Program-made: the position numbers and the translations under genes
In this document: piece by piece, positions 16,047 to 30,700 of the stretch
How positions within the stretch are numbered: position 1 is the first letter of the stretch
Layout: every line of letters begins with the position of its first letter
Assembly (NCBI GenBank): GCA_017434855.1
Contig: JAFRUA010000030.1
Coordinates: 1-64,000 of the forward strand
Source of the DNA: Clostridia bacterium
GTDB taxonomy: Bacteria; Bacillota; Clostridia; Oscillospirales; Acutalibacteraceae
DNA length: 64,000 nt
Direction: 5' to 3'
Notes under the pieces: generated by a model
What the model saw: the letters and a program-made list of their open reading frames with translations, nothing else
What the model was told of the DNA's origin: nothing
The model's database searches: none

Positions 16047-17960
16047 ATGCAATATTTTGCGAAAGACTATGATGTGATCGTCATCGGCGCGGGCCATGCC
16101 GGGATCGAAGCCGGACTGGCGGCGGCGCGGCTGGGCGCGACGGTCGGTGTGTTTACCATCAATATGGACTGGGTCGGCAACATGCCGTGCAACCCCTCCA
16201 TCGGCGGCACGGCAAAGGGCCATCTGGTGCGGGAAATCGACGCGCTCGGCGGAGAAATGGGCAAGGCGGCGGACGCCAACACCCTGCAAAGCCGCATTTT
16301 GAACCGCGGCAAAGGCCCGGCCGTGCATTCTCTGCGCGCCCAGGTGGATCGCCGGCGCTACAGCGAATATATGAAGCATGCGCTGGAATTGCAGGACCGG
16401 CTGGAGCTGATCCAGGCAGAAATTGTGGACCTGACCCGTGACGGCGGCGGCTGGCTGGCTGTGACGCGGCTGGAAGCACAGTACCGTGCAAAGGCGGTGA
16501 TCCTTGCGACCGGCACATTTTTGGGCGGACGCATTTATGTGGGCGACGTGTCTTATGACGGCGGGCCGGACGGGATGTTCTCGGCCACTGCCCTTTCGGC
16601 TGCGCTGAAGCGGCTCGGGGTTCCGACCCGGCGGTTCAAGACCGGCACGCCGGCGCGTGTGCTGCGGCGCAGTGTGGATTTCACCGGGCTGGAACGGCAG
16701 GACGGCGACGACGTGATCGTCCCCTTCTCTTTTGACGGTCTGTTCACGCCGCAAAACAAACTCCCCTGCTACATCACCTATACCAACGACGCGACCAAAG
16801 ACGTCATTCTTGAAAATCTGCACCGCTCCCCGCTTTACAGCGGCAAAATCGACGGCGTCGGGCCGCGGTACTGCCCAAGCATCGAAGACAAGATCGTTCG
16901 TTTTCCGGAAAAGCAGCGGCACCAGCTCTTCATTGAGCCGTGCGGCGAATTTACGGAAGAGCTGTATTTGCAGGGCATGTCCTCCTCTTTGCCGGAGGAT
17001 GTGCAGCTTCGTTTCTTGCGGACCATCCCGGGGCTGGAGCATGTGCAGGTCATGCGCACGGCCTATGCCATCGAATATGACTGTGTGGATCCGCTGGCGC
17101 TGGATGCGACGCTGGAATTCAAGGCGCTGCCCGGCCTGTTCGGCGCGGGGCAGTTCAACGGCTCCAGCGGCTATGAAGAGGCTGCGGCGCAGGGCCTGAT
17201 TGCCGGCATCAACGCAGCCAGGCTGGTGCAGGGCCGGGGGCCCCTGATTCTGGACCGCGCGAGTTCATACATCGGCACACTGATCGACGACCTGGTGACG
17301 CGCGGCTGCACCGATCCTTACCGCATGATGACGTCACGCTCGGAATACCGCTTGCTGCTGCGGCAGGACAACGCGGACCGGCGGCTGACGCGGATCGGGC
17401 ACGACGTTGGGCTGGTCAGCGATGAAAAGCTGCGGCGGCTGGAGGAAAAGGAACGCCTGATTGCCGAAGAGCGCAGGCGTGTGGAAGGTGTCGGCGTGCC
17501 GCCGAGCGACGCGCTGGATGCGCTGCTTGTTTCACGTGAAACATCACCGATGAAAACCGGCTGCCGGCTGATCGACCTGCTGCGGCGCCCGCAACTGGAT
17601 TATGCGGCGCTGACGCCATTTGACCCGGAGCGGCCGGCGCTGCCGCAGGAGATTTTTGAACAGGTCGAGATCGAAATCAAATACGAAGGCTACATCCGGC
17701 GGCAGGCGGCTCAGGCCCAGGAGATGCGCCGTCTGGAAATCAAGACGCTGGAGCATATCGAGGATTATAACGAGATTCAGGGGCTGCGGATGGAAGCGCA
17801 GGAAAAGCTGAACAAGGTCCGTCCGCGCAATCTGGGGCAGGCGTCGCGCATTTCCGGCGTCAGCCCGGCGGACATCTCGGTCCTGATGATTTATTTGAGA
17901 AAGCAGGAAGTGCAGCAGCGCATTGCCGCAAAAAAGGAGCAAAATGCAGAACTTCATTGA
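16047..17960 (+). CDS. mnmG: tRNA uridine-34 carboxymethylaminomethyl enzyme MnmG (GidA)
   Basis: The product is 637 residues, normal length. The FAD-binding VIVIGAGHAGIEAGLAAARLG is near the N-terminus, and CNPSIGG, FKTGTPAR and NGSSGYEEAAAQG are conserved blocks. With MnmE it modifies the wobble uridine of several tRNAs. The ATG at 16047 follows GGAGAAGGAA. It overlaps rsmG by 17 bases. A parS palindrome lies inside the coding region at 17528. mnmE itself is not in the window. Confidence 0.97.
   Translation: MQYFAKDYDVIVIGAGHAGIEAGLAAARLGATVGVFTINMDWVGNMPCNPSIGGTAKGHLVREIDALGGEMGKAADANTLQSRILNRGKGPAVHSLRAQVDRRRYSEYMKHALELQDRLELIQAEIVDLTRDGGGWLAVTRLEAQYRAKAVILATGTFLGGRIYVGDVSYDGGPDGMFSATALSAALKRLGVPTRRFKTGTPARVLRRSVDFTGLERQDGDDVIVPFSFDGLFTPQNKLPCYITYTNDATKDVILENLHRSPLYSGKIDGVGPRYCPSIEDKIVRFPEKQRHQLFIEPCGEFTEELYLQGMSSSLPEDVQLRFLRTIPGLEHVQVMRTAYAIEYDCVDPLALDATLEFKALPGLFGAGQFNGSSGYEEAAAQGLIAGINAARLVQGRGPLILDRASSYIGTLIDDLVTRGCTDPYRMMTSRSEYRLLLRQDNADRRLTRIGHDVGLVSDEKLRRLEEKERLIAEERRRVEGVGVPPSDALDALLVSRETSPMKTGCRLIDLLRRPQLDYAALTPFDPERPALPQEIFEQVEIEIKYEGYIRRQAAQAQEMRRLEIKTLEHIEDYNEIQGLRMEAQEKLNKVRPRNLGQASRISGVSPADISVLMIYLRKQEVQQRIAAKKEQNAELH
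17528..17543. promoter_or_regulatory. parS centromere site inside mnmG
   Basis: TGTTTCACGTGAAACA is an exact match to the universal 16-bp bacterial parS palindrome, about 11 kb to the right of the origin. ParB (Spo0J) proteins load here to organise and segregate origins. It is coded as part of mnmG. The Noc-like protein encoded downstream is not the expected reader; see the findings. Confidence 0.9.
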
Positions 17961-18693
17961 GATTGAGCGTTTGAAAGAGAAAGCGGCGGCGCTTGGCGTC
18001 TCATTGGACGAGACCGCACTGGAACGCTTTGACATTTATGCAAAAGCGCTGGTGGAATGGAACGAAAAAATCAACCTGACCGCCATCACGCAGCCGCAGG
18101 ACATCGTGACAAAGCACTTTGCAGACAGTTTGACGCTGCTGCGGCACCTTCGGGCGAAGCATGCCGGAACGCTGCTGGACGTCGGTACCGGCGCCGGCTT
18201 TCCCGGGTTGGCGCTGCTGATTGCAGATCCCGCATTGCAGGTGACGCTGCTGGACAGTATCAAAAAAAAGCTGACGGTGCTGCAGGACATTCTGGGACGG
18301 CTGTCGCTTTCTGCGGCGCTGCTGCACGGCCGGGCGGAAGACCTGGCCCATGATGCGCGGTACCGGGAACAGTTTGACGCCGTCACGGCGCGGGCGGTGG
18401 CGGCTTTGCCGGTGCTGGCGGAGTATTGCCTGCCGTTTGTGCGTGTGGGCGGGACGTTTTATGCCATGAAGAGCGTGACCGCCGCGGAAGAGGTGAAGGA
18501 TGCTCAACCGGCGATCCGGCTGCTGGGCGGTGATCGGCCGCAGTGCAAAACAATGACGCTGGAAGACGTGGGGGAGCGCTGCCTGATCCTTGTCGGCAAA
18601 CGTTCGGCCACAAGTCAGAAATATCCGCGTCCTTCGGCAAAAATCGCAAAGGAACCGCTCGGGCAGGGCAAAAACCTGCCGAAAACCAAATGA
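17944..18693 (+). CDS. rsmG: 16S rRNA (guanine-527-N7)-methyltransferase RsmG (GidB)
   Basis: The product is 249 residues. The SAM-binding motif LLDVGTGAGFPGLALLIADP is intact, and the GidB block NEKINLTAI precedes it. It methylates G527 of 16S rRNA; its loss is known to give low-level streptomycin resistance. The ATG at 17944 follows AAAAAGGAG and lies inside the end of mnmG, a coupled pair. The C-terminus has a basic Pro-rich extension. Confidence 0.95.
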   Translation: MQNFIEIERLKEKAAALGVSLDETALERFDIYAKALVEWNEKINLTAITQPQDIVTKHFADSLTLLRHLRAKHAGTLLDVGTGAGFPGLALLIADPALQVTLLDSIKKKLTVLQDILGRLSLSAALLHGRAEDLAHDARYREQFDAVTARAVAALPVLAEYCLPFVRVGGTFYAMKSVTAAEEVKDAQPAIRLLGGDRPQCKTMTLEDVGERCLILVGKRSATSQKYPRPSAKIAKEPLGQGKNLPKTK

Positions 18694-18772
18694 TCCCGGC
18701 GAACGCTTTTGCTGGACAAGGCTCCCTGTTTGTGCTACCATTTTCGGGAAGTATCAGGCAGGGGGCGGTTTT

Positions 18773-19615
18773 ATGCAGGAGGAAGCGCGCGCGGCGGGGC
18801 AGGTGCTGTTGATCCCAAACGAAAAGATCTTTCCGAATCCGAACCAACCGCGCCGGACCTTTGACCAAAGCGAGCTGGTGAATCTGGCCATCAGCATCCG
18901 AATGAACGGAATTTTGCAGCCGATCACCGTGCGCAAGGTCGAAAAAGGATACGAACTGGTTTCCGGCGAGCGGCGGCTACGGGCGTCGCGGCTGGCGGGG
19001 ATGGTGGTTGTGCCGTGCATTGTGGTGGACGTCAACGCCATGAAGTCGGCGATTTTTTCCCTGATTGAGAACCTGCAGCGACAAAACCTCAACTGTTTTG
19101 AAGAGGCTGCGGCCATCGAAACGCTGATGGAGCAATTCGGCCTGTCGCAGGAAGAGGTGGCGCGGCGGATCGGGAAAGCGCCGTCCACCGTGTCAAACAA
19201 GCTGCGGCTGCTGGCGCTGCCGACCGAAGTGCGGCGCAGAATGGCAGAAGCAAATCTGACGGAACGGCACGCGCGGGCGCTGCTGCGGCTGGATGCCGAC
19301 GAAGTGCCGCAGGCGCTTGAAAAGGTGATTGCGCGGGAGCTGAATGTTGCGCAGACCGAGCGGCTGGTGGAGACGCTGACGGAACAAAAAGCCCGCCCGA
19401 AACGAACCACCCGGCGGTTGTTCAGCGACGTGCGCATATTTTTGAACACCATCAGCAATGCATTTGACACAATGAAAAGCGCGGGGATCGACGCGCGGCT
19501 TGAAAAGCAGGAGCGCGACGACGCCTTTGTGTTTGAAATCACGATCCCGAAAAGCAGTGCATACCGGGCCGGCGCTGCCGCGAAAGAAACGAAAACCGAA
19601 CCGACCGTCAATTAA
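18773..19615 (+). CDS. noc: Noc-like nucleoid occlusion protein (ParB family)
   Basis: The product is 280 residues. The ParB/Srx nuclease-like domain has IRMNGILQPITVR and the CTP-binding box SGERRLRASRLAG. The helix-turn-helix reads GKAPSTVSNKLRLL, followed by LTERHARALLRL. From memory, these two stretches match Bacillus Noc (STIANKLRLL, ITERHARAL) better than Spo0J (PHIANHLRLL, LSMGHGRTLL), so I call noc. The position after rsmG agrees. No parA/soj or second parB follows within the window. The ATG at 18773 has a GGGGGCGG-type site. Confidence 0.82.
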   Translation: MQEEARAAGQVLLIPNEKIFPNPNQPRRTFDQSELVNLAISIRMNGILQPITVRKVEKGYELVSGERRLRASRLAGMVVVPCIVVDVNAMKSAIFSLIENLQRQNLNCFEEAAAIETLMEQFGLSQEEVARRIGKAPSTVSNKLRLLALPTEVRRRMAEANLTERHARALLRLDADEVPQALEKVIARELNVAQTERLVETLTEQKARPKRTTRRLFSDVRIFLNTISNAFDTMKSAGIDARLEKQERDDAFVFEITIPKSSAYRAGAAAKETKTEPTVN

Positions 19616-19616
19616 G

Positions 19617-19640
19617 GCACGCTGCGGCGTGCTTTTTGTT
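19617..19640 (+). terminator. Terminator after noc
   Basis: GCACGC (19617-19622), TGCG loop, GCGTGC (19627-19632), then TTTTTGTTT. It begins right at the noc stop and separates noc from the ECF operon. Confidence 0.8.
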
Positions 19641-19731
19641 TATGCACTCTTTAATATTCCAAATCAGAAATATAAAACAAGGGTTTTGTGATAATATAAA
19701 ATGATATATTTTATACCGGAAGGGGATTGCT

Positions 19732-21123
19732 TTGAACAAGCGTGAAAACGAACGAAACCCGGTCGAAACGCCCGCGCATGACGCGGCGCATGACGCGCTG
19801 GCCGAGGAACTGGAAGCGCTGCGCGACCTGTTTCAAAAAGAACTGGACCGCGCAAAAAACGCGCCGGACGATGCTGCGCTGCCGGTGAAAGACGGCGCGC
19901 CCGATGCGCCGCCGGATGCGGACGAAGGCCCGGTGTGCGCCTGCTGCGGGGCGCCGCTGACGGATGCCGACGCCGACGCGCCGTATTGCGAAGAATGCCT
20001 GACGCAGATGCGTACGCGGCCGGTCCACGCTGCGGCGGCGCTGTTTGTTTTGGCGGCGTTTTTGCTGGCGGCTGTGGGTTTGTATCTGTTCTCCGACTCT
20101 GCGGCCCAGTGGCGGCAACTGTTTTCGGCACAGCGCGCGGTGCAGGAGCACCGACTGCTGGATGCCGCCGACCGGTATGGCGACTGCTTTTTAATGAATG
20201 CAGACCGTGACAGCGTGTCGCTCACGGGAATCAAAGCGTATGCGGACCTTTGCCGATCACTGGGAGATGTTGATCTGGCGGCGCTGCTGGTGGACGCCCG
20301 GTTCCCGGGTCCCTTGCTGAAGCTGCCGTGGAACGCACGGTACCGCGCGCTGCTGAAGCTGCAGGCACAATTTGCCGCGACCGAGCAGGTGGCGATCGAC
20401 ATCTTTGGGGCGTATGATGATTATACGGATGCGGCCGTCTATGAGGATGTGGACGCGCAGTTGTGCGCGCTGCGGACCGATGACACATACGCGCCGGTTG
20501 CGGTGGAATACATTCGCTATCTTTTGATGAAGGCGGCCGGCAAACCGGCGGCGCTGCAAATGCAGCAGCTGGAGCAAATGGAGGCGGTCGACGACGGATG
20601 TTATACCGGGTACTATCTGGCCGCGATGATCGAGCTGGCGGGGGAGACCGGCGGCCCGGACGCCGCACGCACGTATTTTCAGACGGCGATCGAGCGCAAT
20701 GGGCAGGATCAGAATGCGTATGATGCCTTTGTGCGGGTGCTGCGCAGGCAGCCGGCGCCAGACACGGCCGCGATTTTTTCTGTGGCACAGGCCGCACAGG
20801 CGAATGCGCCGGCACGGGGAAAGCCGGTCTGGCTGCGGCTGTTTGCGGTCAGCGACCTTTTACGCGGCGATGACGCGCAGGCACTGCGCGAGATGCAGTT
20901 GTATATGACGGCCTGCTATGAGCAGCAGCTTTCGCTGACGATGGAGGAATGGAACCTGTATGCGCTTTGCGCCGCAGCGGCGGGGGATGAGGACGCCTGT
21001 GCCCAGATCGAAACCGCACTGGGCAGCGCACAGTTGAAGTTGTCGCCGGTGATCGGGCGGGTGCGGGCAGGCACATGGACGGCGGCTGAAGCGCTGCGGA
21101 AAGACGGGGGTGACATTGCATGA
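19732..21123 (+). CDS. Zinc-ribbon, single-span membrane protein with TPR-like helices
   Basis: The product is 463 residues and starts with TTG after GGAAGGGG. Residues 1-60 are charged and Ala/Asp/Pro-rich. A zinc ribbon follows (CACCGAPL and YCEECL, about residues 65-85), then one membrane helix (about 100-122), then about 340 residues of helical, TPR-like repeats with many Ala and Leu. It is the first gene of the ECF operon and overlaps the next by four bases (ATGA). The role is unknown; a scaffold or sensor for the transporter is a guess. There is no Cys catalytic motif and no signal peptide. Confidence 0.7.
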   Translation: MNKRENERNPVETPAHDAAHDALAEELEALRDLFQKELDRAKNAPDDAALPVKDGAPDAPPDADEGPVCACCGAPLTDADADAPYCEECLTQMRTRPVHAAAALFVLAAFLLAAVGLYLFSDSAAQWRQLFSAQRAVQEHRLLDAADRYGDCFLMNADRDSVSLTGIKAYADLCRSLGDVDLAALLVDARFPGPLLKLPWNARYRALLKLQAQFAATEQVAIDIFGAYDDYTDAAVYEDVDAQLCALRTDDTYAPVAVEYIRYLLMKAAGKPAALQMQQLEQMEAVDDGCYTGYYLAAMIELAGETGGPDAARTYFQTAIERNGQDQNAYDAFVRVLRRQPAPDTAAIFSVAQAAQANAPARGKPVWLRLFAVSDLLRGDDAQALREMQLYMTACYEQQLSLTMEEWNLYALCAAAAGDEDACAQIETALGSAQLKLSPVIGRVRAGTWTAAEALRKDGGDIA

Positions 21124-21692
21124 ATGGGATAGACCGTGTGATTCGCGTGCTGACCGCGCCCGGCGTGTGGATCCGATCCTTTTGGGTCCATCTGCTGTGC
21201 CGCATCTGGGCGGTTCCCGTGACAGAAACACGCCTGTTTCAAAACAAGGCGACGTTCGGCCATCTGCAGCACATGGCGCCGCCGACAGTGGGCGCGGCCT
21301 TTGCGATCGGATTTGTGCCGGCGCTTTTGAACCGGCTGCTGGCGCTGCTGCTGTTTTTGAGTTCTTTGCTGGGCCTGTTCCTGTTTCGTATGACGGGGTG
21401 GGTGGCGCTGAGCGCCAACACGCTGGCCTTTTGGTTCGCGTTTTCGCTGTATGTCAACACCTATCCGCCGGCAGAGCATGCGCGGCGGATGCAGACCATG
21501 CTGCGCGGGCAGGGCACGCGGGCGCAAAAAATCCTTTTGGCGCCGGGAACCTTCTGCTGTGCGGTCGGGTCGTTTCTTGAACGCCGCGGCGTGACGTTTT
21601 TGCTGGCCTGCGCGGGCCTTGCGGCGCTGGTGCTTTGGCAGGGCGCGCTGTTTGCCGCCATTGCCCGGTGGCTGCCGAATCTTGAGGGGTGA
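21120..21692 (+). CDS. Small multi-span membrane protein, unknown
   Basis: The product is 190 residues. About four hydrophobic segments can be seen (GAAFAIGFVPALL; LLALLLFLSSLLGLFL; SANTLAFWFAFSLYV; FLLACAGLAALVLW). The ATG overlaps the stop of the preceding gene (ATGA), so translation is coupled. I do not recognise the family. Its place between the zinc-ribbon protein and the surface proteins suggests a part in the same membrane system. Confidence 0.65.
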   Translation: MNGIDRVIRVLTAPGVWIRSFWVHLLCRIWAVPVTETRLFQNKATFGHLQHMAPPTVGAAFAIGFVPALLNRLLALLLFLSSLLGLFLFRMTGWVALSANTLAFWFAFSLYVNTYPPAEHARRMQTMLRGQGTRAQKILLAPGTFCCAVGSFLERRGVTFLLACAGLAALVLWQGALFAAIARWLPNLEG

Positions 21693-21701
21693 GGGATCGC
21701 G

Positions 21702-23039
21702 ATGAGAAAACAATCCGGACTGTTTTGTGCCTTGGCGGTGCTGCTTCTGCTGGTGAGCACTGTGGTTCCCGTGGCCGGGGCAGCCAAAACGCAAAACGTA
21801 AAAAATTCCATTTTGGAATTTTTGAGGGCAGAGAACCCGTCCCCGGACTTTGGCTCTGTGGGCGGGGATTGGGCCGTGCTTTGCCTGGCGCGCGGCGGTG
21901 CGATCGCGGCAAACGACGCCTATGCGTCGGCCTATCTGACGCGGGTCACGGCCCAGGTGCGGGCGATTGCACCCACGATGCCGGGCGCAACCGGCGCGCT
22001 GCACCGCAGCAAGTCGACCGAAAACGCGCGCCTGATCCTGGCGCTGACCGCGATCGGGCAGGACCCGCGCGATGTGGGCGGCTGGAACCTGCTGCGCCCG
22101 TTTGAAGATGTTGACTGGATCGGGCGGCAGGGCCTCAACGGCGTGATCTTTGCGCTGCTGGCACTGGACGCGCACGATTATGAGACACAGAACGCGACGA
22201 TCCGCAGTCAGTGCCTGGAAAAGCTGCTGTCATCGCAGACGGCGGACGGCGGCTGGACGCTGGCCGGGTCGAACGCGGACGCCGACCTGACGGCGATGGC
22301 GCTGCAGGCGCTTGCCCGGTACCGCAGCAAAGCGGCAGTCAGTCAGGCCGCACAGCGGGGATTCGACTGCCTTTCCGCCATGCAGGGTGCGGACGGCGAT
22401 TTCACCGACCAGTGCGAAACGCTTGCGCAGGTGGTGACGGCCTGCGCCGCCTGGGGCCGCGACCCCGACACGGATGCGGCGTTTAAAAAATCCGGCGGGT
22501 CCGCGTGGAAAGCGCTGTTGTCTTATGCGCTGCCAGGCGGCGGTTTTTGCCACCGGCAGGGCGACGGCCCGGATGAAATGGCGTCAGAGCAGGCGGGCTA
22601 TGCCATTGTGGCGTATGACCGATTCCTGAACGGAGAAGCCGCATTATATGACATGCGGAATGTGCGGCTGAACACCGACGCCGACGTGTCGACCACCCAT
22701 GGCGCCGACCAGACGCCGACGACCGCGCGGCCGACAAACAGTCAGCCGACAACCGCGCAGCCGACCACGGTGCAGCCCACAGGGGCAGCGCCGTCAGCAA
22801 CGCCGGAAGCGACCGCATCGGGCGGCTCTTTGACGCCAACGACGCAGGGGTCCGCCGCCGGGCAGCCGCAGGCGGCAGTGCCCGCAGATGCCGCAGTGCC
22901 GGCGGGCGCACAGACGCCCTCTGCGCCAAAGACCGGTGATACATCGGCGGCGGTGATCGCCGCGCTGACCCTTTCGGCAGCAAGCGCGGGGCTGTTCCTG
23001 TTGGTCGCCGTGCGCAAAAAGAAGGGGGCGAGGGCATGA
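21702..23039 (+). CDS. Cell-wall-anchored alpha/alpha-barrel protein (terpene-cyclase/intrinsic-factor fold)
   Basis: The product is 445 residues. It has a signal peptide (MRKQSG, hydrophobic core, VAGAA), then an alpha-helical domain with prenyltransferase/squalene-cyclase type repeats (QTADGGWTL, MQGADGDFT, LPGGGFCH) to about residue 310. A Thr/Pro/Gln-rich linker follows, then a sortase signal: APKTG at 408-412, a hydrophobic span, and the basic tail RKKKGARA. In animal intrinsic factor and transcobalamin this barrel is the alpha domain. It overlaps the DUF4430 lipoprotein gene by four bases. I infer extracellular ligand capture, not catalysis. Confidence 0.78.
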   Translation: MRKQSGLFCALAVLLLLVSTVVPVAGAAKTQNVKNSILEFLRAENPSPDFGSVGGDWAVLCLARGGAIAANDAYASAYLTRVTAQVRAIAPTMPGATGALHRSKSTENARLILALTAIGQDPRDVGGWNLLRPFEDVDWIGRQGLNGVIFALLALDAHDYETQNATIRSQCLEKLLSSQTADGGWTLAGSNADADLTAMALQALARYRSKAAVSQAAQRGFDCLSAMQGADGDFTDQCETLAQVVTACAAWGRDPDTDAAFKKSGGSAWKALLSYALPGGGFCHRQGDGPDEMASEQAGYAIVAYDRFLNGEAALYDMRNVRLNTDADVSTTHGADQTPTTARPTNSQPTTAQPTTVQPTGAAPSATPEATASGGSLTPTTQGSAAGQPQAAVPADAAVPAGAQTPSAPKTGDTSAAVIAALTLSAASAGLFLLVAVRKKKGARA

Positions 23040-23536
23040 AGAAACGCCTGTTTCTGCTGCTTGCGCTGCTGGTTTTGCTGACGGGCTGCGCCGGTGCAAA
23101 CAAAGAAGACCGTGGGGAACGGACGCTGACCTGTACGCTTTTGATCGAATGTGAAACCGCTCTGCAAAGCAGCGACCTGGACGGTGCGGTCCGGGCGGTG
23201 CTGCCGGAAAGCGGCGTGATTCTTGAGCAAAGCGTGACGTTTGCAGAGGGGGAGAGCGTCTTTGAAGTGCTGCAGCGCGCCTGCCGCGACGCGGGCGTTG
23301 CGATGGAGTTTTCCGACACGCCGGTGTATCATAGCGCTTATATCGAAGGCATCGGCCACCTTTATGAATTTGACTGCGGCTCCGGGTCCGGTTGGATGTA
23401 CAGCGTCAACGGCGAGTACCCGAACTTCGGCTGCAGCCGATACACGCTGAAGGATGGCGACGCGGTGGCATGGCGCTACACCTGTGATTACGGCGCCGAC
23501 CTTGGCCACCCCGGCGGTCAGGCGCTGGACGAATAA
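23036..23536 (+). CDS. DUF4430 lipoprotein (transcobalamin C-terminal-like domain)
   Basis: The product is 166 residues. The lipobox LLTGC places the lipid-modified Cys at residue 18. The single DUF4430 domain shows the typical GESVFEVLQRAC, GSGSGWMYSVNGEYPNFG and LKDGDAVAWRYT blocks. The same fold forms the beta domain of intrinsic factor and transcobalamin. It is coupled to the barrel protein upstream (ATGA) and followed 31 bases later by ecfT, so I infer a membrane-tethered binding protein feeding the ECF importer. Confidence 0.82.
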   Translation: MKKRLFLLLALLVLLTGCAGANKEDRGERTLTCTLLIECETALQSSDLDGAVRAVLPESGVILEQSVTFAEGESVFEVLQRACRDAGVAMEFSDTPVYHSAYIEGIGHLYEFDCGSGSGWMYSVNGEYPNFGCSRYTLKDGDAVAWRYTCDYGADLGHPGGQALDE

Positions 23537-23567
23537 CGAACGATTTCGACAGAAAGGACGTCAAGGC

Positions 23568-24425
23568 ATGGCAAAGCGGCGCGATATTCTTTTTTGGCAC
23601 CCGGCGGTCAGTCTGCTCTTTTTTGCGCTGGCCATCGGCTGCGCTTTGCTCTGGCGGCACCCGGCGTGTTTGCTGATCTCGCTGGTCTGCGGCGCGTGGA
23701 ACGCCATGCGGCTGACGCGGCGGAAAAGGCGGCGGGCCGGCTGGCCGGTTTTGGCGGCGGCGGTGCTGCTGACGGCGGCGATCAACGCCGCGTTCAATCA
23801 CCGGGGCGTCACCCGCCTTGCCTATCTGCCGTCCGGCAATGCGCTGACGCTGGAAAGTCTGCTGTTTGGGCTGTCGTCCGGGTTGCTGCTGGCGGCGGTG
23901 CTGCTGTGGTTCCGGTGCTTTTCGCGGGTCTTCACGGCGGAAAAGTGGATGTATCTGTTTGCAAAGGCGACGCCGGCGCTGGCGCTGCTGCTGTCGATGA
24001 GTTTGCAGTTTTTTGAAAAATTTCGCCGCCGGTTTCAAAAGGTCACGGCCGCACAGGCCGCCCTTGCGTCAAACGGCCCGGCAAAGGAGCGCCCGCTGCA
24101 AACGGCGCGGCGCAGCTTTGCGGTGATGCTGTCCTGGTCGCTGGAAAGCGCGATCGTCACCGCCGACAGCATGAAAAGCCGCGGCTACGGCACGGCAAGG
24201 CGCACGGCCATGACGCGCTTTTGTTACACGCGGCGCGACCGGCTGCTGACGCTCTGGCTGCTGCTGTGCGGCGTGTCTTTGGTCGGCGCGGCGGCAACCG
24301 GGCTGTTTGACTGGCGATACTTTCCGGCGTTCGGCGGGGGCGGCGCGGCCCCCATCACGGGATATCTGCTCACGTTGTATTTTTTGTTCTGCATGACGCC
24401 GCTTTGGGCCGATTGCCTTGCATAG
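23568..24425 (+). CDS. ecfT: Energy-coupling factor transporter transmembrane protein EcfT
   Basis: The product is 285 residues with about five to six membrane segments. The conserved coupling motif appears as DSMKSRGYG near residue 205, matching the A-x-x-x-R-G family box that contacts the ATPases. The ATG at 23568 follows AAAGGA. It ends eight bases before the ATPase/S fusion gene. EcfT links ATP hydrolysis to toppling of the S component. Confidence 0.9.
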   Translation: MAKRRDILFWHPAVSLLFFALAIGCALLWRHPACLLISLVCGAWNAMRLTRRKRRRAGWPVLAAAVLLTAAINAAFNHRGVTRLAYLPSGNALTLESLLFGLSSGLLLAAVLLWFRCFSRVFTAEKWMYLFAKATPALALLLSMSLQFFEKFRRRFQKVTAAQAALASNGPAKERPLQTARRSFAVMLSWSLESAIVTADSMKSRGYGTARRTAMTRFCYTRRDRLLTLWLLLCGVSLVGAAATGLFDWRYFPAFGGGGAAPITGYLLTLYFLFCMTPLWADCLA

Positions 24426-24433
24426 GAGGAACG

Positions 24434-27070
24434 ATGGACCTTCTGACCGTACAGCATTTGACCTTTGCCTATCCGAACCGGGCTGCACCCGCGTTACGGG
24501 ACGTTTCGTTCTCGCTGCGCGCGGGTGATTTTGTCGTACTCTGCGGGCGGTCCGGCAGCGGAAAAACCACGCTGCTGCGGCAGCTCAAGCCGGCGCTGGC
24601 GCCGCGCGGAATCCTGGACGGCCGCGTGCTTTGGAAAGGGGAAGCGCTCTCTGCGCGCGCTCTGAAGCAGACGGCCGCCGACATTGGTTTTGTGCAGCAG
24701 GACCCCCGGGATCAGATCGTGACCGACACCGTACGGCACGAGCTGGCCTTCGGCGCGGAAAGTCTGGGCATGGACCCGCAGACGATCTGCCGCCGCGTGG
24801 CGGAAACGGCGGCCTTTTTCGGCATCGAGGACCTGATCGGTCGGTCGACGGCGGACCTGTCCGGCGGGCAGGCACAGCTTTTGAATCTTGCGGCGGCAAT
24901 GGTGCTGCAGCCGAAGCTGCTGCTGCTGGACGAGCCGACGGCGCAGCTCGACCCCGTTGCGGCGGACACGTTTTTTGCCGCGCTGCAAAAGGTCAACCGG
25001 GAGTTGGGCGTCGCCGTCCTGATGACGGAGCACCGGCTGGAAACCGCCCTGACGCTGGCGACGGCCGCGGCTGTGCTGGAAAACGGAACGCTGCTGTGCT
25101 TCGGCGACGTCACGGCGGCGGGGAAGATGCTGCGGCAAACCCGCAACCCGCTGTTTTTTTCGATGCCGGCGGCCATGCAGCTCTGGTGCAGCGTGGAAAG
25201 CGCGCAGCCCTGCCCGGTCTCGGTCGGGGAGGGGCGCGAATTTCTGGGCGAATATCTGAAAGATCACCCGGCCTGTCCGGTCCCGCAAAGACAACCCGCC
25301 TCCGGCGGCGACACGGCTGTGACCGTGGAGGAGCTGACGTTCGGCTACGGGGAAGGGCCGGTGCTGCGCAACCTGTCGTTCACGGCGCAAAAGGGGACGC
25401 TGACCTGCATCCTCGGCGGCAACGGGGCGGGGAAGTCCACGCTGCTGTCACTGCTGGCCGGGCAACGGACGCCGGAACGGGGGACGCTGCGCTGCAAGGG
25501 GCGCGTGGGGCTGCTGCCGCAGCAGACGCAGACCCTTTTCATCAAAAAGACAGTGTGGAGCGACCTGTGCACGGCGGGGGCGCTTTCTGAAAAAACACAG
25601 GCAGAGCGAGAGACCGCTGTGCGCGACATGCTGGACCTGTGCGGGCTGCGGGGGCTGGAGGACCGGCACCCGTTTGACCTGTCGGGCGGCGAGATGCAGC
25701 GTGCGGCACTGGCAAAGGTGCTGCTGGGCGGCCCGGACATTCTGCTGCTGGACGAACCGACCAAGGGGTTTGACGCTGCGTTCAAACGCCGGTTCGCATC
25801 CGTTCTGGAAACATTGAAGGCAAAGGGCGTCTGCATCGTGATGGTGAGTCACGACGTGGAGTTTTGCGCCCGGACGGCCGACGTCTGCGCCCTGCTGTTT
25901 GACGGCGCGCTGGTCGGCAGCGGTCCGCCGCAGGAATTTTTCGGCGGCAACCGGTTTTATACCACGCAGGCGTCGCGCATCAGCCGCGGTCTGCTGCCGG
26001 ATGTGATCACCGCGCCGCAGCTCATCGCGGGCGCGGGCGGCACTGCCCCGGCGTGGGCAGAAGACGACGCGCCGGCGCCCGAACCGTTGGCTGTCAGGCC
26101 GGTGCAGCCGCAGCAAAAACCGCTGGCGCGCTGGCGCAAAGTCGGCGCGGGTCTGTCGGCTGTGGCGGCGCTGGTGCTGTTCGTGCTGCTGGCGCGGACG
26201 TTCCCGGCAACGGGGATGCAGGACGTTTCGGCCTTTACGGCGCTGACGCCGATGCAAAAGCAACTGGGCGGCGCGTTCTTTTTCAGCCTGCTTGCCGCTG
26301 CGCTGTTCACCGCAAAAAAGCAGCCCGAAACGGCGCTGCCGCAAACCAAACGCAAACTGCCGCTGCGCACCTGGTTCGGCGCCGGGCTTTGCGTCTGCGC
26401 GATCCCGCCGGTGCTGTGGTACGGGACGACGCTGCTGCCGGCAAAGCAGTATTATCTGACGGCGCTGGCGGTGCTGGTGCTGGCAATGCTGCCGTTTGTT
26501 CTGGTCTTTGAGGGCCGGCGGCCCCGGGCGCGGGAGCTGGCGCTTTTGGCGGCGCTTTGCGCGGTGACGGCGGCGGGGCGCGCGGCGTTCTTTATGCTGC
26601 CGCAGTGCAAGCCGGTGCTGGCGATGACGGTGCTGGTCGGCGTGGCGCTGGGCGGCGAAAGCGGCTTTCTGGTCGGTGCGGTGACGATGCTGGTGTCAAA
26701 CCTGCTGTTTGCGCAGGGCGCGTGGACGCCGTGGCAGATGTTTGCCATGGGGCTGGCCGGCGGTCTGGCCGGGCTGCTGGCGCGGCTGGGTCTGCTGCGC
26801 CGGTCGCGGCTGTCGCTGTGCGTCTTCGGCGCGCTGGCGGCCGTTGTGATCTACGGCGGCGTCATGAACCCGGCGGCGGCATTGATCTGGGGCGGCGAGG
26901 TGCTGAACCGCGAGATTTTGCTGACGTACTATGCGGCGGGGTTCCCGATGGACTGCGTGCACGCGGCAGCGACGGTGCTGTTTCTGTGGTTCCTTGCGCC
27001 GACGGTGCTGGATACCCTGCAGCGTGTGAAAGAAAAATACGGTGTGTTTGAAACGGGGGATGACGGATGA
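24434..27070 (+). CDS. EcfA-EcfA'-EcfS fusion: ECF importer ATPases plus substrate-binding membrane subunit
   Basis: The product is 878 residues. The first ABC domain has Walker A GRSGSGKTT (38-46), Q-loop VQQDPRDQ, signature LSGGQ (142-146) and LLLLDEP (162-168). The second has GGNGAGKST (328-336), LSGGE (416-420) and LLLDEPTKGFD (437-447). A linker follows, then from about 570 two to four extra membrane spans and an S-component-like six-span domain with LVSNLLFAQGAWTPWQMF. The ATG at 24434 follows AGGAGGA. All three activities are usually separate chains. I infer a vitamin importer, with cobalamin the first candidate from the neighbours. Confidence 0.85.
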   Translation: MDLLTVQHLTFAYPNRAAPALRDVSFSLRAGDFVVLCGRSGSGKTTLLRQLKPALAPRGILDGRVLWKGEALSARALKQTAADIGFVQQDPRDQIVTDTVRHELAFGAESLGMDPQTICRRVAETAAFFGIEDLIGRSTADLSGGQAQLLNLAAAMVLQPKLLLLDEPTAQLDPVAADTFFAALQKVNRELGVAVLMTEHRLETALTLATAAAVLENGTLLCFGDVTAAGKMLRQTRNPLFFSMPAAMQLWCSVESAQPCPVSVGEGREFLGEYLKDHPACPVPQRQPASGGDTAVTVEELTFGYGEGPVLRNLSFTAQKGTLTCILGGNGAGKSTLLSLLAGQRTPERGTLRCKGRVGLLPQQTQTLFIKKTVWSDLCTAGALSEKTQAERETAVRDMLDLCGLRGLEDRHPFDLSGGEMQRAALAKVLLGGPDILLLDEPTKGFDAAFKRRFASVLETLKAKGVCIVMVSHDVEFCARTADVCALLFDGALVGSGPPQEFFGGNRFYTTQASRISRGLLPDVITAPQLIAGAGGTAPAWAEDDAPAPEPLAVRPVQPQQKPLARWRKVGAGLSAVAALVLFVLLARTFPATGMQDVSAFTALTPMQKQLGGAFFFSLLAAALFTAKKQPETALPQTKRKLPLRTWFGAGLCVCAIPPVLWYGTTLLPAKQYYLTALAVLVLAMLPFVLVFEGRRPRARELALLAALCAVTAAGRAAFFMLPQCKPVLAMTVLVGVALGGESGFLVGAVTMLVSNLLFAQGAWTPWQMFAMGLAGGLAGLLARLGLLRRSRLSLCVFGALAAVVIYGGVMNPAAALIWGGEVLNREILLTYYAAGFPMDCVHAAATVLFLWFLAPTVLDTLQRVKEKYGVFETGDDG

Positions 27071-27609
27071 AGTGGATGATCGCGGCGGACCTGCACGGGG
27101 CTGCGGCGTGCTGTGAAAATTTGCTGAAAGCGTTTGACCGCGAGGGCGCCGGGCGGCTGATCCTGCTCGGGGACCTGCTGTATCACGGGCCGCGCAACGA
27201 CCTGCCCGCGGATTATGACCCGAAGCGGGTGATCGCGCTGCTGAACCCGCGGCGGCGGCAGTTGCTTTGCGTGCGCGGAAACTGCGACGCAGAGGTGGAC
27301 CAGATGGTACTGGATTTCCCCATCCTGGCGGAATATGCGCTTTTGCCGGTGGGGGAGCGGCTGATTTTTATGACCCACGGCCACCGATACAACCAAACGA
27401 ATCTGCCGCCGATGAACGCGGGCGACGTCCTGCTGCACGGGCACACCCATGTGCCGGCGTGGGAACCGGTCGGCGATGTTTTATACTGCAACCCCGGGTC
27501 GGCCGCACTGCCGAAGGCGGGCAGCGAGCGCAGCTATATGACGCTCGAGGACGGCGTGCTGCAATGGAAAACGCTGGATGGAACGGCATTTCACAGCCTG
27601 ACGCTCTGA
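27067..27609 (+). CDS. YfcE-like metallophosphodiesterase
   Basis: The product is 180 residues. Metal-binding motifs of the calcineurin-like fold run in order: AADLHG, LLGDLLYHG, RGNCD, MTHGHRYN and LLHGHTHVP, then CNPGSAALPK, typical of YfcE/MJ0936. The ATG overlaps the stop of the ECF fusion (ATGA), so it ends the seven-gene operon. Its natural substrate is unknown. Confidence 0.88.
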   Translation: MKWMIAADLHGAAACCENLLKAFDREGAGRLILLGDLLYHGPRNDLPADYDPKRVIALLNPRRRQLLCVRGNCDAEVDQMVLDFPILAEYALLPVGERLIFMTHGHRYNQTNLPPMNAGDVLLHGHTHVPAWEPVGDVLYCNPGSAALPKAGSERSYMTLEDGVLQWKTLDGTAFHSLTL

Positions 27610-27644
27610 CCGGATGAATGGCGGGAATGTCTTTTGTGTTTTTG

Positions 27645-27673
27645 TTGACAAGCGTGCAAACTTCGGGTACAAT
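27645..27673 (+). promoter_or_regulatory. Promoter of the beta-galactosidase gene
   Basis: TTGACA (27645-27650), 17-base spacer, TACAAT (27668-27673), 36 bases before the start codon. No clear operator palindrome or cre-like site was seen next to it. Confidence 0.8.
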
Positions 27674-27709
27674 AATAGAGAATCCAACGCAAGAAAGGAA
27701 ACAAGGGAT

Positions 27710-30700
27710 ATGAAATACATTTGGGAAGATCCGTTGATCGTTGCCGAACACAAAGAGGACGGGCATGTGATCGCGCTGCCGTATGCGAATCCGCAGGATC
27801 TGCTGGCCGGCAAGCCCACCCCGTTCAAGCTGTCGCTGAATGGCACATGGAAGTTCCTTTGGAAAAAGGGCGTCACCGAGCTGCCGGCAGAGGTCACCGG
27901 CAAGGACTTTGACGACAGCGCATGGGAAGACATTCAGGTGCCCGGCGTGTGGCAGTTCCAGAAGGATTACACCAAGCCGTGGTACTATGCAAACTCATAT
28001 CCGAACGCGATCGACGTGCATGAAAAGAACATCCCGACCATCCGTCACGAGGATCAGGAGATTGCCGCCCACCGCACGACGTTTACGCTGCCGCAGGACT
28101 GGGACGGCCGCGAGATCTTTCTGCATTTCGGCGCGGTGAAGGCCGGCCTTGCCGTCTATCTGAACGGTGAATACGTGGGGTACTCGCAGGGGTCCTTCAC
28201 GCCGCACGAATTTGACGTGACTCGCTTTGCGGTCCCCGGCGAAAATCAGTTGACCGCGATCGTGTACCGCTACACGGACGGCACCTATCTGGAGGATCAG
28301 GACATGTGGTTCCTGTCGGGCATTTATCGCGAGGTCTATCTGTTCAGCGAGCCGAAGCAGACGCTGCGCGATGTGTATGTCACCACCGCACTGCTGAACG
28401 GTTACACGGACGCCGACCTGGTGGCGGAGCTGTTCATCAATGACTACAGCGACGCCGGAAAGTCGTTCGCTGTCGAAGCGACGCTGCTGGACGGCGCGGA
28501 CAAGACGGTTGTGGGCAGCACGGACCTGATCACGCGCGCGGGTGAGAACAAGGTCGTTTTCAAAAAGCATTTCAAGGCGCCGAAGCTCTGGTCCAGCGAA
28601 CAGCCGTACCTGTATACGCTGCTGTTTTGCTTCACCTGCGACGGTGTGACGACCTATAAGCGCGTGCGCGTCGGCTTCCGTCAGGTGGAGATCGACGGCG
28701 AGCGCATCCTGGTCAACGGGCAGCCGCTGATGATCCGCGGCACCAACCGCCACGATTATGACCCCGACACCGGCTGGACGGTGCCCTATGACCGTTACAT
28801 TCAGGACTTTGACCTGATGAAGCGCGCCAACATCAACGCCATCCGCTGCAGCCATTATCCCAACGACCCGCTGTTTTACGACCTGTGCGACGAATACGGC
28901 TTCTGGGTCATGGACGAGTGCGACATGGAAACGCACGGCGTGCGCCGCAAGGGCGTGCCGGGCAGCAATCCGCTGTGGACGCGCGCGGTCTGCGACCGCA
29001 TGGAGCGCATGGTGCTGCGCGACCGGAACCACCCGTGCATCTTTATGTGGAGTCTCGGCAACGAGGCCGGCGACGGCGACAATTTCCTGAAGATGAAAGA
29101 GGCTGCGCTGCGGCTGGACAAGACCCGTCCGTTCCACTATGAGGGCGACTTTGACTTCACCAAGAGCGACGTCATCAGCCGCATGTACCCGACCGAGGAG
29201 CAGGTGGAAAAGATCGGCAACCGCGCGCCGCTGGTGGCGACGTGGTTCGACAACATCGCCAACGCCCTGGCCGCCGACAACAAACCCATCAAGGCCAGCG
29301 ATTATACCAAACCGGTGCTGTTCTGCGAATATGCCCACGCGATGGAAAACAGTCTGGGCAACTTCCAGGAATACATGGACGCCTTTGAAAAATACGACAA
29401 CCTCTGGGGCGGCTTCATCTGGGACTTTGTCGATCAGGCGATCCACAAAACCGTGGACGGCAAGGACCGCTGGCTGTACGGCTCCGACTTCAACGAAAAA
29501 ACCAACTGGTTCAAGCCGCCGTACAACTATGCCGCCATTGTGGGCAGCAACACCTATTTCAATGCAAACGGCATTGTGGCCGCCGACCGCACGCCGCACC
29601 CGTCATATTACGAGGTGAAAAAGGTCTATGCCGAAATGAAGATCGAGGCGGTCGATCTTTCGGCCGGCGTGTTCCGCGTCAAAAACAAGCAGCTCTTTAC
29701 CGATCTGTCCGCGTTCGATCTGGTCTATGTGCTGGAAGAGGACGGCGTAAAGTTTGCCGAGGGCAAGGTGCCCGAAGCGGCCTATGCCGCAACAAAGCCG
29801 CTGTCGGACCGCGAATTCCGCGTGGAGCTGCCGGCGCTGCCTGCGGGCGAAGTGTATCTGACATTCTCGTTCCTGCGCAAGGCGGATTGCCGCTTTGCCA
29901 AGGCCGGATTTGAGCAGACCTTTGACCAGTTCCGCCTGAAAGGCTCCGACCGGGCGGAAGAAGCGCCGGCGACGGAAGGCAAGGTCAAAATCGAAGGGAC
30001 GGAAAAGAACTTTATCGTCAAGGGCGACGATTTTGTCTACCGCTTCAAAAACGGTCAGCTTTATTCCATGGAAAAAACCGGTGTACATTATCTTGACAAG
30101 CCGGTGCGCTCCAACTATTACCGCGCCCTGACCGACAACGACATCGACTATCTCAACTTTATGCCGCCGCTTATCTTTGCGCATCCGCTGTATGCCTGGA
30201 AGCGGGCGACCGATTCCGCAAAGAGCCGCGCCACGCTGGTGCATCAGTACAGCCACAGCGCCTACATTGAAACGACCGTCAGCGCTGCCGGCGTCAAGGA
30301 TGAAACCCTGACCTATACGGTTGCCGCCGACGGAAAGATCTTTGTGACCCACACCGGCACGGCGGGCAAGGATATGCTGCGCTTCGGCCTGAAGTTTGCG
30401 ATGCCGGGCGCATTTGACCGGGTGGCGTGGTTCGGCAGGGGACCGCAGGAAAATTACTGCGACCGCAAGACCGGCGCGCGCATGGCCCGCTATGAGATGT
30501 CGGTTGCCGACCTGGAGCATCCGTATATGCGTCCGCAGGAAAACGGCCACCGCACCGACGTGCGCACGCTGCGCATCACTGACGAAACCGGCAAGGGCCT
30601 GCAGGTGACTGCCCTCGGCGACACGCCGTTTGCCTTCAACTGCTTCCCTTATTCCATCAAAGACCTGGATAAGGCCATGCATACCCATGAGCTGCAGCAC

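Follow-up and report, generated by a model that had tools for sequence, protein, structure and literature searches.

A probable corrinoid importer of Clostridia with two surface proteins resembling the domains of animal vitamin B12 carriers

Introduction

What is carried into the cell by an operon that pairs an exported barrel protein and a lipoprotein, together reminiscent of animal vitamin B12 carriers, with an ECF importer? The question was raised by the region 19732–27609 (+ strand) of the window (the whole stretch of DNA that was analysed; 64,000 nt). A sequence-only reading had described this region as a seven-gene operon for a corrinoid that is captured at the cell wall, handed to a membrane lipoprotein, and passed on to the S domain of the importer.

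Gene layout and extent of the conserved unit

All seven reading frames were present on the + strand where the sequence-only reading had placed them, and the tight coupling that it had described (ATGA overlaps or gaps below 35 bases) was borne out by the sequence at the junctions: the ATGA overlaps were located at 21120–21123 (19732 and 21120 genes), 23036–23039 (barrel and DUF4430 genes), and 27067–27070 (fusion and phosphodiesterase genes), while the gaps comprised 9 bases (21692/21702), 28 bases (23536/23565), and 8 bases (24425/24434). The accompanying domain assignments (barrel, wall anchor, DUF4430 lipoprotein, EcfT, EcfA–EcfA'–S fusion, and phosphodiesterase) held in domain searches.

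The idea of one seven-gene unit did not survive comparison with relatives. Of 147 genomes from the same order, 68 contained an S-domain homologue, and 40 stretches around S were read. The shared core of these 40 loci was composed of barrel, DUF4430, EcfT, EcfA–EcfA', and S, mostly in that order, and no homologue was found in them for the products of three window genes: (i) a protein of zinc-ribbon, membrane, and helical-repeat type (19732..21123, +); (ii) its partner, a membrane protein (21120..21692, +); and (iii) a YfcE-type phosphodiesterase (27067..27609, +; NF006988, 212.9 bits), which was ATGA-coupled to the fusion gene and not conserved with the operon. In each of the five relatives examined, homologues of the first two were neighbours at a site distinct from the ECF operon, and the 18–20 kb read contained no gene for EcfT, S, barrel, or DUF4430. 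The functional unit, as judged from these gene neighbourhoods, is four genes (21702, 23036, 23565, and 24434; span 21702–27070), because the 19732/21120 pair recurs without ECF genes and neither this pair nor 27067 has a homologue in the ECF loci. The window would thus contain a corrinoid operon sitting directly behind an unrelated gene pair, with nine bases between them.

Two further observations concerned the flanks. The zinc-ribbon/helical-repeat protein and the small membrane protein (19732–21692; relatives L189 to L193) formed a conserved adjacent pair in the window's family, with varied surroundings. On the other side, a near-perfect sigma-70 promoter (TTGACA, 17 bases, TACAAT) was observed at 27645–27673 (+), between the phosphodiesterase and beta-galactosidase genes, and thus the lacZ-type gene downstream is probably transcribed on its own.

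The ECF importer and its S domain

The EcfT gene (23565..24425, +; 286 aa) encoded a transmembrane component that had no Pfam match of its own but shared about 40% identity with relatives, among them one that passed CbiQ (PF02361) at 7.3e-9. The adjoining gene (24434..27070, +; 878 aa) encoded an EcfA–EcfA'–S fusion, in which the domain search recognized two ABC_tran stretches followed by ECF-ribofla_trS at residues 702–847. The two ECF ATPases and the EcfT expected of an ECF importer were thus all found, the latter through its CbiQ-passing relative. The S domain (26450..27046, +) was homologous to the cobalamin S component CbrT: it matched 6fnp_A with an E value of 4.6e-10 as a single sequence and of 1.5e-18 as a 39-row profile, the next S component following at 4e-4.

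ECF-CbrT of Lactobacillus delbrueckii (6FNP; PMC5997447), which transports cobalamin and cobinamide, shared with the window system a homologous S component, EcfT, two ATPases, and the probable cargo. The L. delbrueckii cbrT gene is located within nrdJ–cbrS–cbrT–pduO and its product uses the general ECF module, whereas the S domain of the window was fused to both ATPases, stood in an operon of its own, and had a wall-anchored barrel alongside. The cobalamin ABC importer BtuCDF resembles the window system in outline, with extracytoplasmic capture followed by ATP-driven uptake, while the folds of its binding protein and permease are unrelated to those of the window system.

The S tree placed the window in a clade of 11 rows (support 99/95), which included four riboswitch-controlled ones; the row nearest to the window was L032, with only a weak riboswitch upstream (26 bits). 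The window stood apart from Lactobacillales, whose branch joined L061 and L066.

Two variants of the importer locus were also observed. A diverged homologous ECF operon in the window's genus (G188, L195:8069-14191) had a PQQ-type beta-propeller protein in the barrel's place, DUF4430 after S, and a weak cobalamin riboswitch. The mobilizable plasmid pMF1298-5 of Lactiplantibacillus plantarum (L199:1154-6261) carried EcfT–EcfAA'–S, followed by a protein annotated as a fucose-binding lectin and a DUF4430 protein.

Cobalamin riboswitches in the window and in relatives

No riboswitch was found in 17000–28000 even under permissive settings, in line with what the sequence-only reading had remarked of the upstream bases, and no cobalamin riboswitch in the window's whole genome, whereas a survey of homologous operons, as that reading had proposed, found linkage to B12 riboswitches in many relatives. 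Two sets of genomes, which may share species, were used: (i) in set 1, 24 of 55 S-domain genomes had a same-strand cobalamin riboswitch no more than 10 kb upstream, and 27 of the 52 cobalamin riboswitches stood upstream of the operon, against a chance expectation of 0.12; and (ii) in set 2 (named records), a riboswitch lay upstream in 22 of 39 genomes, with both features confirmed on one contig. Coordinates alone had given 27 of 39 in set 2, and five false pairings (L093, L094, L098, L100, and L101) were dropped. Within the window's family, a riboswitch was present upstream in 11 of 28 relatives, including one of the same genus with a weak match (28 bits). Some 315 bases separated the end of the riboswitch from the barrel gene in Paenibacillus silvestris, and a strong cobalamin riboswitch was located upstream in L066, near the Lactobacillales branch of the S tree. 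No riboswitch of another class was found beside the operon in the loci scanned; one T-box was present downstream of S in L025.

The genome G225, with an S domain 72% identical to that of the window, had a cobalamin riboswitch 9.1 kb upstream of S, followed in order by genes for a 951-aa protein, a weak DUF4430 protein, barrel, DUF4430, EcfT, and EcfAA'S. This riboswitch-led layout leads us to infer loss of the leader in the window copy; having no riboswitch characterizes that copy and not the system.

Heme as the alternative cargo

Heme import by an ECF-like system in Latilactobacillus sakei, encoded by the five-gene cluster lsa1836–1840, was reportedly described by Verplaetse et al. in 2020. 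The operon of the close relative Latilactobacillus curvatus harbored the same parts as the window system in the same order (barrel with LPQTG, DUF4430, EcfT, EcfAA', and S) and is probably the counterpart of lsa1836–1840; its S component matched CbrT at E 3.3e-14, and no riboswitch was found at this operon. Passages of PMC7299338 and PMC7872071 cite the L. sakei ECF system as reported to import heme, an excerpt of PMC3146418 annotates LSA1839 as a substrate-binding lipoprotein and LSA1838 as a membrane-spanning subunit, and heme and corrin are both tetrapyrroles. If the operons of L. curvatus and L. sakei are equivalent, systems of this kind have been described before, and the ligand reported for them is heme. 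Through the part-by-part match of the L. curvatus operon, Lsa1836–1840 probably has the same five components as the window system; it differs in its reported ligand and its separate S gene, and L. curvatus differs in having no riboswitch and in the position of its S component on another branch.

That the window system itself would be a heme importer, its surface pair binding heme and its S domain passing heme in as published for L. sakei, is nevertheless unlikely. In many genomes the homologous operon is preceded by a cobalamin riboswitch. The S domain resembles CbrT, and hemin is not a competitor in the case of ECF-CbrT (PMC5997447). The S domain of the window, moreover, groups among riboswitch-controlled members. 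Its separation from Lactobacillales, together with the strong cobalamin riboswitch of L066 near that branch, argues for keeping corrinoid as the window's ligand, and heme would be a derived or additional ligand in the Lactobacillales branch.

The barrel protein

The barrel gene (21702..23039, +) encoded an exported alpha/alpha-barrel protein of 445 aa with a C-terminal sorting signal, composed of APKTG (instead of LPxTG), a hydrophobic stretch, and KKK (TIGR01167, 19.7 bits against a cut-off of 15.9). The mode of wall attachment varied, with this sorting signal in the window and SLH domains in P. silvestris. The barrel domain matched SQHop_cyclase_C with the whole protein at E 7.8e-6 and 25.6 bits (just below the cut-off of 26.1) and with the domain alone at 27.4 bits.

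An AlphaFold2 model (pLDDT 97) displayed one barrel of about 290 residues with a fold like that of the transcobalamin alpha domain. The resemblance to intrinsic factor and transcobalamin that the sequence-only reading had expected of a predicted structure was thus present (intrinsic factor: Z 18.5, 3.3 Å, 239 residues; transcobalamin among the leading Foldseek matches), but the best match of the barrel alone was squalene-hopene cyclase (Z 23.9, 2.9 Å, 262 residues), and on fold comparison the barrel alone was closer to terpene cyclases than to transcobalamin. In the barrel family alignment of 22 order-level relatives, neither the window barrel nor any relative matched PF01122 (Cobalamin_bind) at E 0.1, and searches of the PDB with single sequences and profiles found no link by sequence between the barrel or the fused chain and transcobalamin; the link to transcobalamin therefore rests on fold and architecture.

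The DUF4430 lipoprotein and one-chain relatives

The lipoprotein gene (23036..23536, +; 166 aa) encoded the single DUF4430 match of the window's genome (PF14478, E 2.4e-18), a member of the family of the transcobalamin beta domain, with the lipobox LTGC; it was aligned with 27 operon relatives, and the resulting DUF4430 profile gave chance matches only in the PDB. TCN proteins are recorded as carrying DUF4430 at their C-terminal end (PMC4350170).

The two surface proteins of the window were separate chains, while 9 of the 40 order-level loci encoded barrel and DUF4430 on a single chain, the barrel coming first in eight of them; L124 and L127 also had such one-chain forms. L124 was a lipoprotein of 441 residues with only these two domains. 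The 15 best PDB matches of its model (pLDDT 92.9) were all transcobalamin, intrinsic factor, and haptocorrin (E 2.4e-10 to 1.8e-8), the next being terpene cyclases at 9e-6, and the DUF4430 part was matched by the isolated human transcobalamin beta domain (TMt 0.74, 2.8 Å), with fold matches to 5no0 and 5np4. The whole-chain superposition was poor (about 22 Å), since each domain matched and their relative placement did not, and the placement of the domains in the fused chain is thus unproven; the VIA alignment of the fused model contained barrel matches only and excludes nothing. The comparison with transcobalamin and intrinsic factor that the sequence-only reading had drawn is hence upheld by fold matches and by natural single-chain relatives. 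Animal transcobalamin, intrinsic factor, and haptocorrin shared with these proteins two domains of matching folds, in the same order as in most fused relatives, whereas the window had two chains, each anchored, and a barrel with no detectable sequence match to transcobalamin.

Among the 58 named loci that extended 6 kb or more upstream of S, both surface genes were present in 41, in keeping with the expected co-occurrence with the S domain; DUF4430 alone was present in four, barrel alone in none, and neither in 13. L075, L084, and L090 had EcfT–EcfAA'–S with a cobalamin riboswitch some 3 kb before S, and no barrel or DUF4430 was detected there; in view of such riboswitch-led loci, the surface proteins look accessory. 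Nine loci (L033, L052, L056, L074, L083, L093, L100, L104, and L196) carried large surface proteins (about 880–1900 aa) ahead of the operon, with further DUF4430 and/or barrel domains, and one of these proteins had weak cohesin and dockerin matches; they are possibly extra corrinoid-capture proteins.

These counts bear on whether the surface pair handles the vitamin at all. The pair might bind a corrinoid-carrying protein, or only dock or serve as a scaffold, and leave capture of the vitamin to S alone; ECF-CbrT works without any partner protein (PMC5997447), and the 13 loci with neither surface gene include the riboswitch-led ones just named. Such a division of labour is rather improbable, because barrel and DUF4430 fuse into a chain that matches B12 carriers as a whole and because the human transcobalamin beta domain alone has been crystallised with cyanocobalamin (5np4). 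A function of the barrel as a secreted enzyme of the terpene-cyclase kind with no part in uptake, as its nearest sequence and fold matches when taken alone (squalene-hopene cyclase and drimenyl diphosphate synthase) might indicate, is very improbable, since it is exported, wall-anchored, fused to DUF4430 in relatives, and placed in B12-riboswitch operons, and since the two barrels and DxDDTA motif of squalene-hopene cyclase are replaced by a single barrel and by DADLTA, aligned with the cyclase DVDDTA, in the window (D-x-D-x-T in the barrel family).

Need for B12 in the window's genome

The genome was probed family by family. One B12-binding protein was found, a MetH of 790 residues (L073:184-2556) near MetF; it covered the first 858 of 1182 MetH model positions, and its C-terminal reactivation domain is thus missing. 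Searches of the genome found no CobS and no PduO-type adenosyltransferase. One FecCD-type importer was found elsewhere in the genome (L155:6172-9092), apparently fused to its ATPase and accompanied by a Peripla_BP_2 binding protein, and the ECF system may therefore not be the only corrinoid route.

Discussion

The best explanation, to which we assign a probability of about 0.75, is a dedicated import system for corrinoids of the vitamin B12 type, in which two surface proteins would jointly capture the ligand and deliver it to the S domain. The corrinoid assignment of the sequence-only reading is thereby retained, on the homology of S to CbrT and the cobalamin riboswitches upstream of homologous operons. 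Points counting against it are the missing riboswitch in the window copy and its genome, the 13 of 58 loci with no surface genes, the FecCD-type importer in the genome, the probable counterpart of the L. sakei heme system with its matching parts, the lack of a sequence link from barrel or fused chain to transcobalamin, the poor whole-chain superposition, and the closer likeness of the barrel alone to terpene cyclases.

In the proposed mechanism, the DUF4430 lipoprotein on the membrane and the wall-anchored barrel would together capture extracellular corrinoid, most likely closing on it from two sides like the two domains of transcobalamin; the surface pair would release it to the CbrT-like S domain, the EcfT/EcfA/EcfA' module would drive it across the membrane with ATP, and the imported corrinoid would serve MetH in the window's genome. 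Corrinoid binding by the two surface proteins, their joint site, and delivery to the S domain are the parts that we infer. In transcobalamin the ligand is held between both domains and contacted by both, and joint capture is thus at least as likely as sequential hand-over; considering also the beta domain with cyanocobalamin in 5np4, the lipoprotein may bind first, with the wall-held barrel closing over. A strict relay from wall to membrane, as first proposed, is also compatible with the anatomy.

Part of this system has precedents. A lipoprotein component of cobalamin ECF transporters is already known by annotation: a Lacticaseibacillus rhamnosus protein is listed as 'Additional lipoprotein component of putative cobalamin ECF transporter' (PMC9963975), which resembles the window lipoprotein as the partner of such a transporter and is given as an annotation only, with no barrel partner mentioned; the same source lists a DUF4430 protein beside rtpR. 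The component set was probably already described by the L. sakei work. New, as far as the literature consulted shows, are (i) the finding that the barrel–DUF4430–ECF operon is linked to riboswitches across Clostridia, and likewise in a Paenibacillus, and (ii) natural one-chain forms whose models match transcobalamin as a whole. A wider reading, which we offer tentatively and would not yet bet on, is that Gram-positive bacteria have true transcobalamin-type B12 capture, in which a one- or two-chain clamshell with a membrane base and a wall lid feeds an ECF importer; shared ancestry with the animal carriers would then be possible, and the use of heme by Latilactobacillus would reflect a subsequent ligand change or a second activity.

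Extracellular corrinoid capture by Gram-positive gut bacteria is poorly described. The operon names two surface proteins, widespread in Clostridia and present in a Paenibacillus, that resemble the halves of human B12 carriers and are encoded in cobalamin-riboswitch operons. It makes two questions testable: whether the same two-domain B12 clamp is used in bacteria and animals, and whether operons of the type reported to import heme in L. sakei serve corrinoid, serve heme, or have changed from one ligand to the other.
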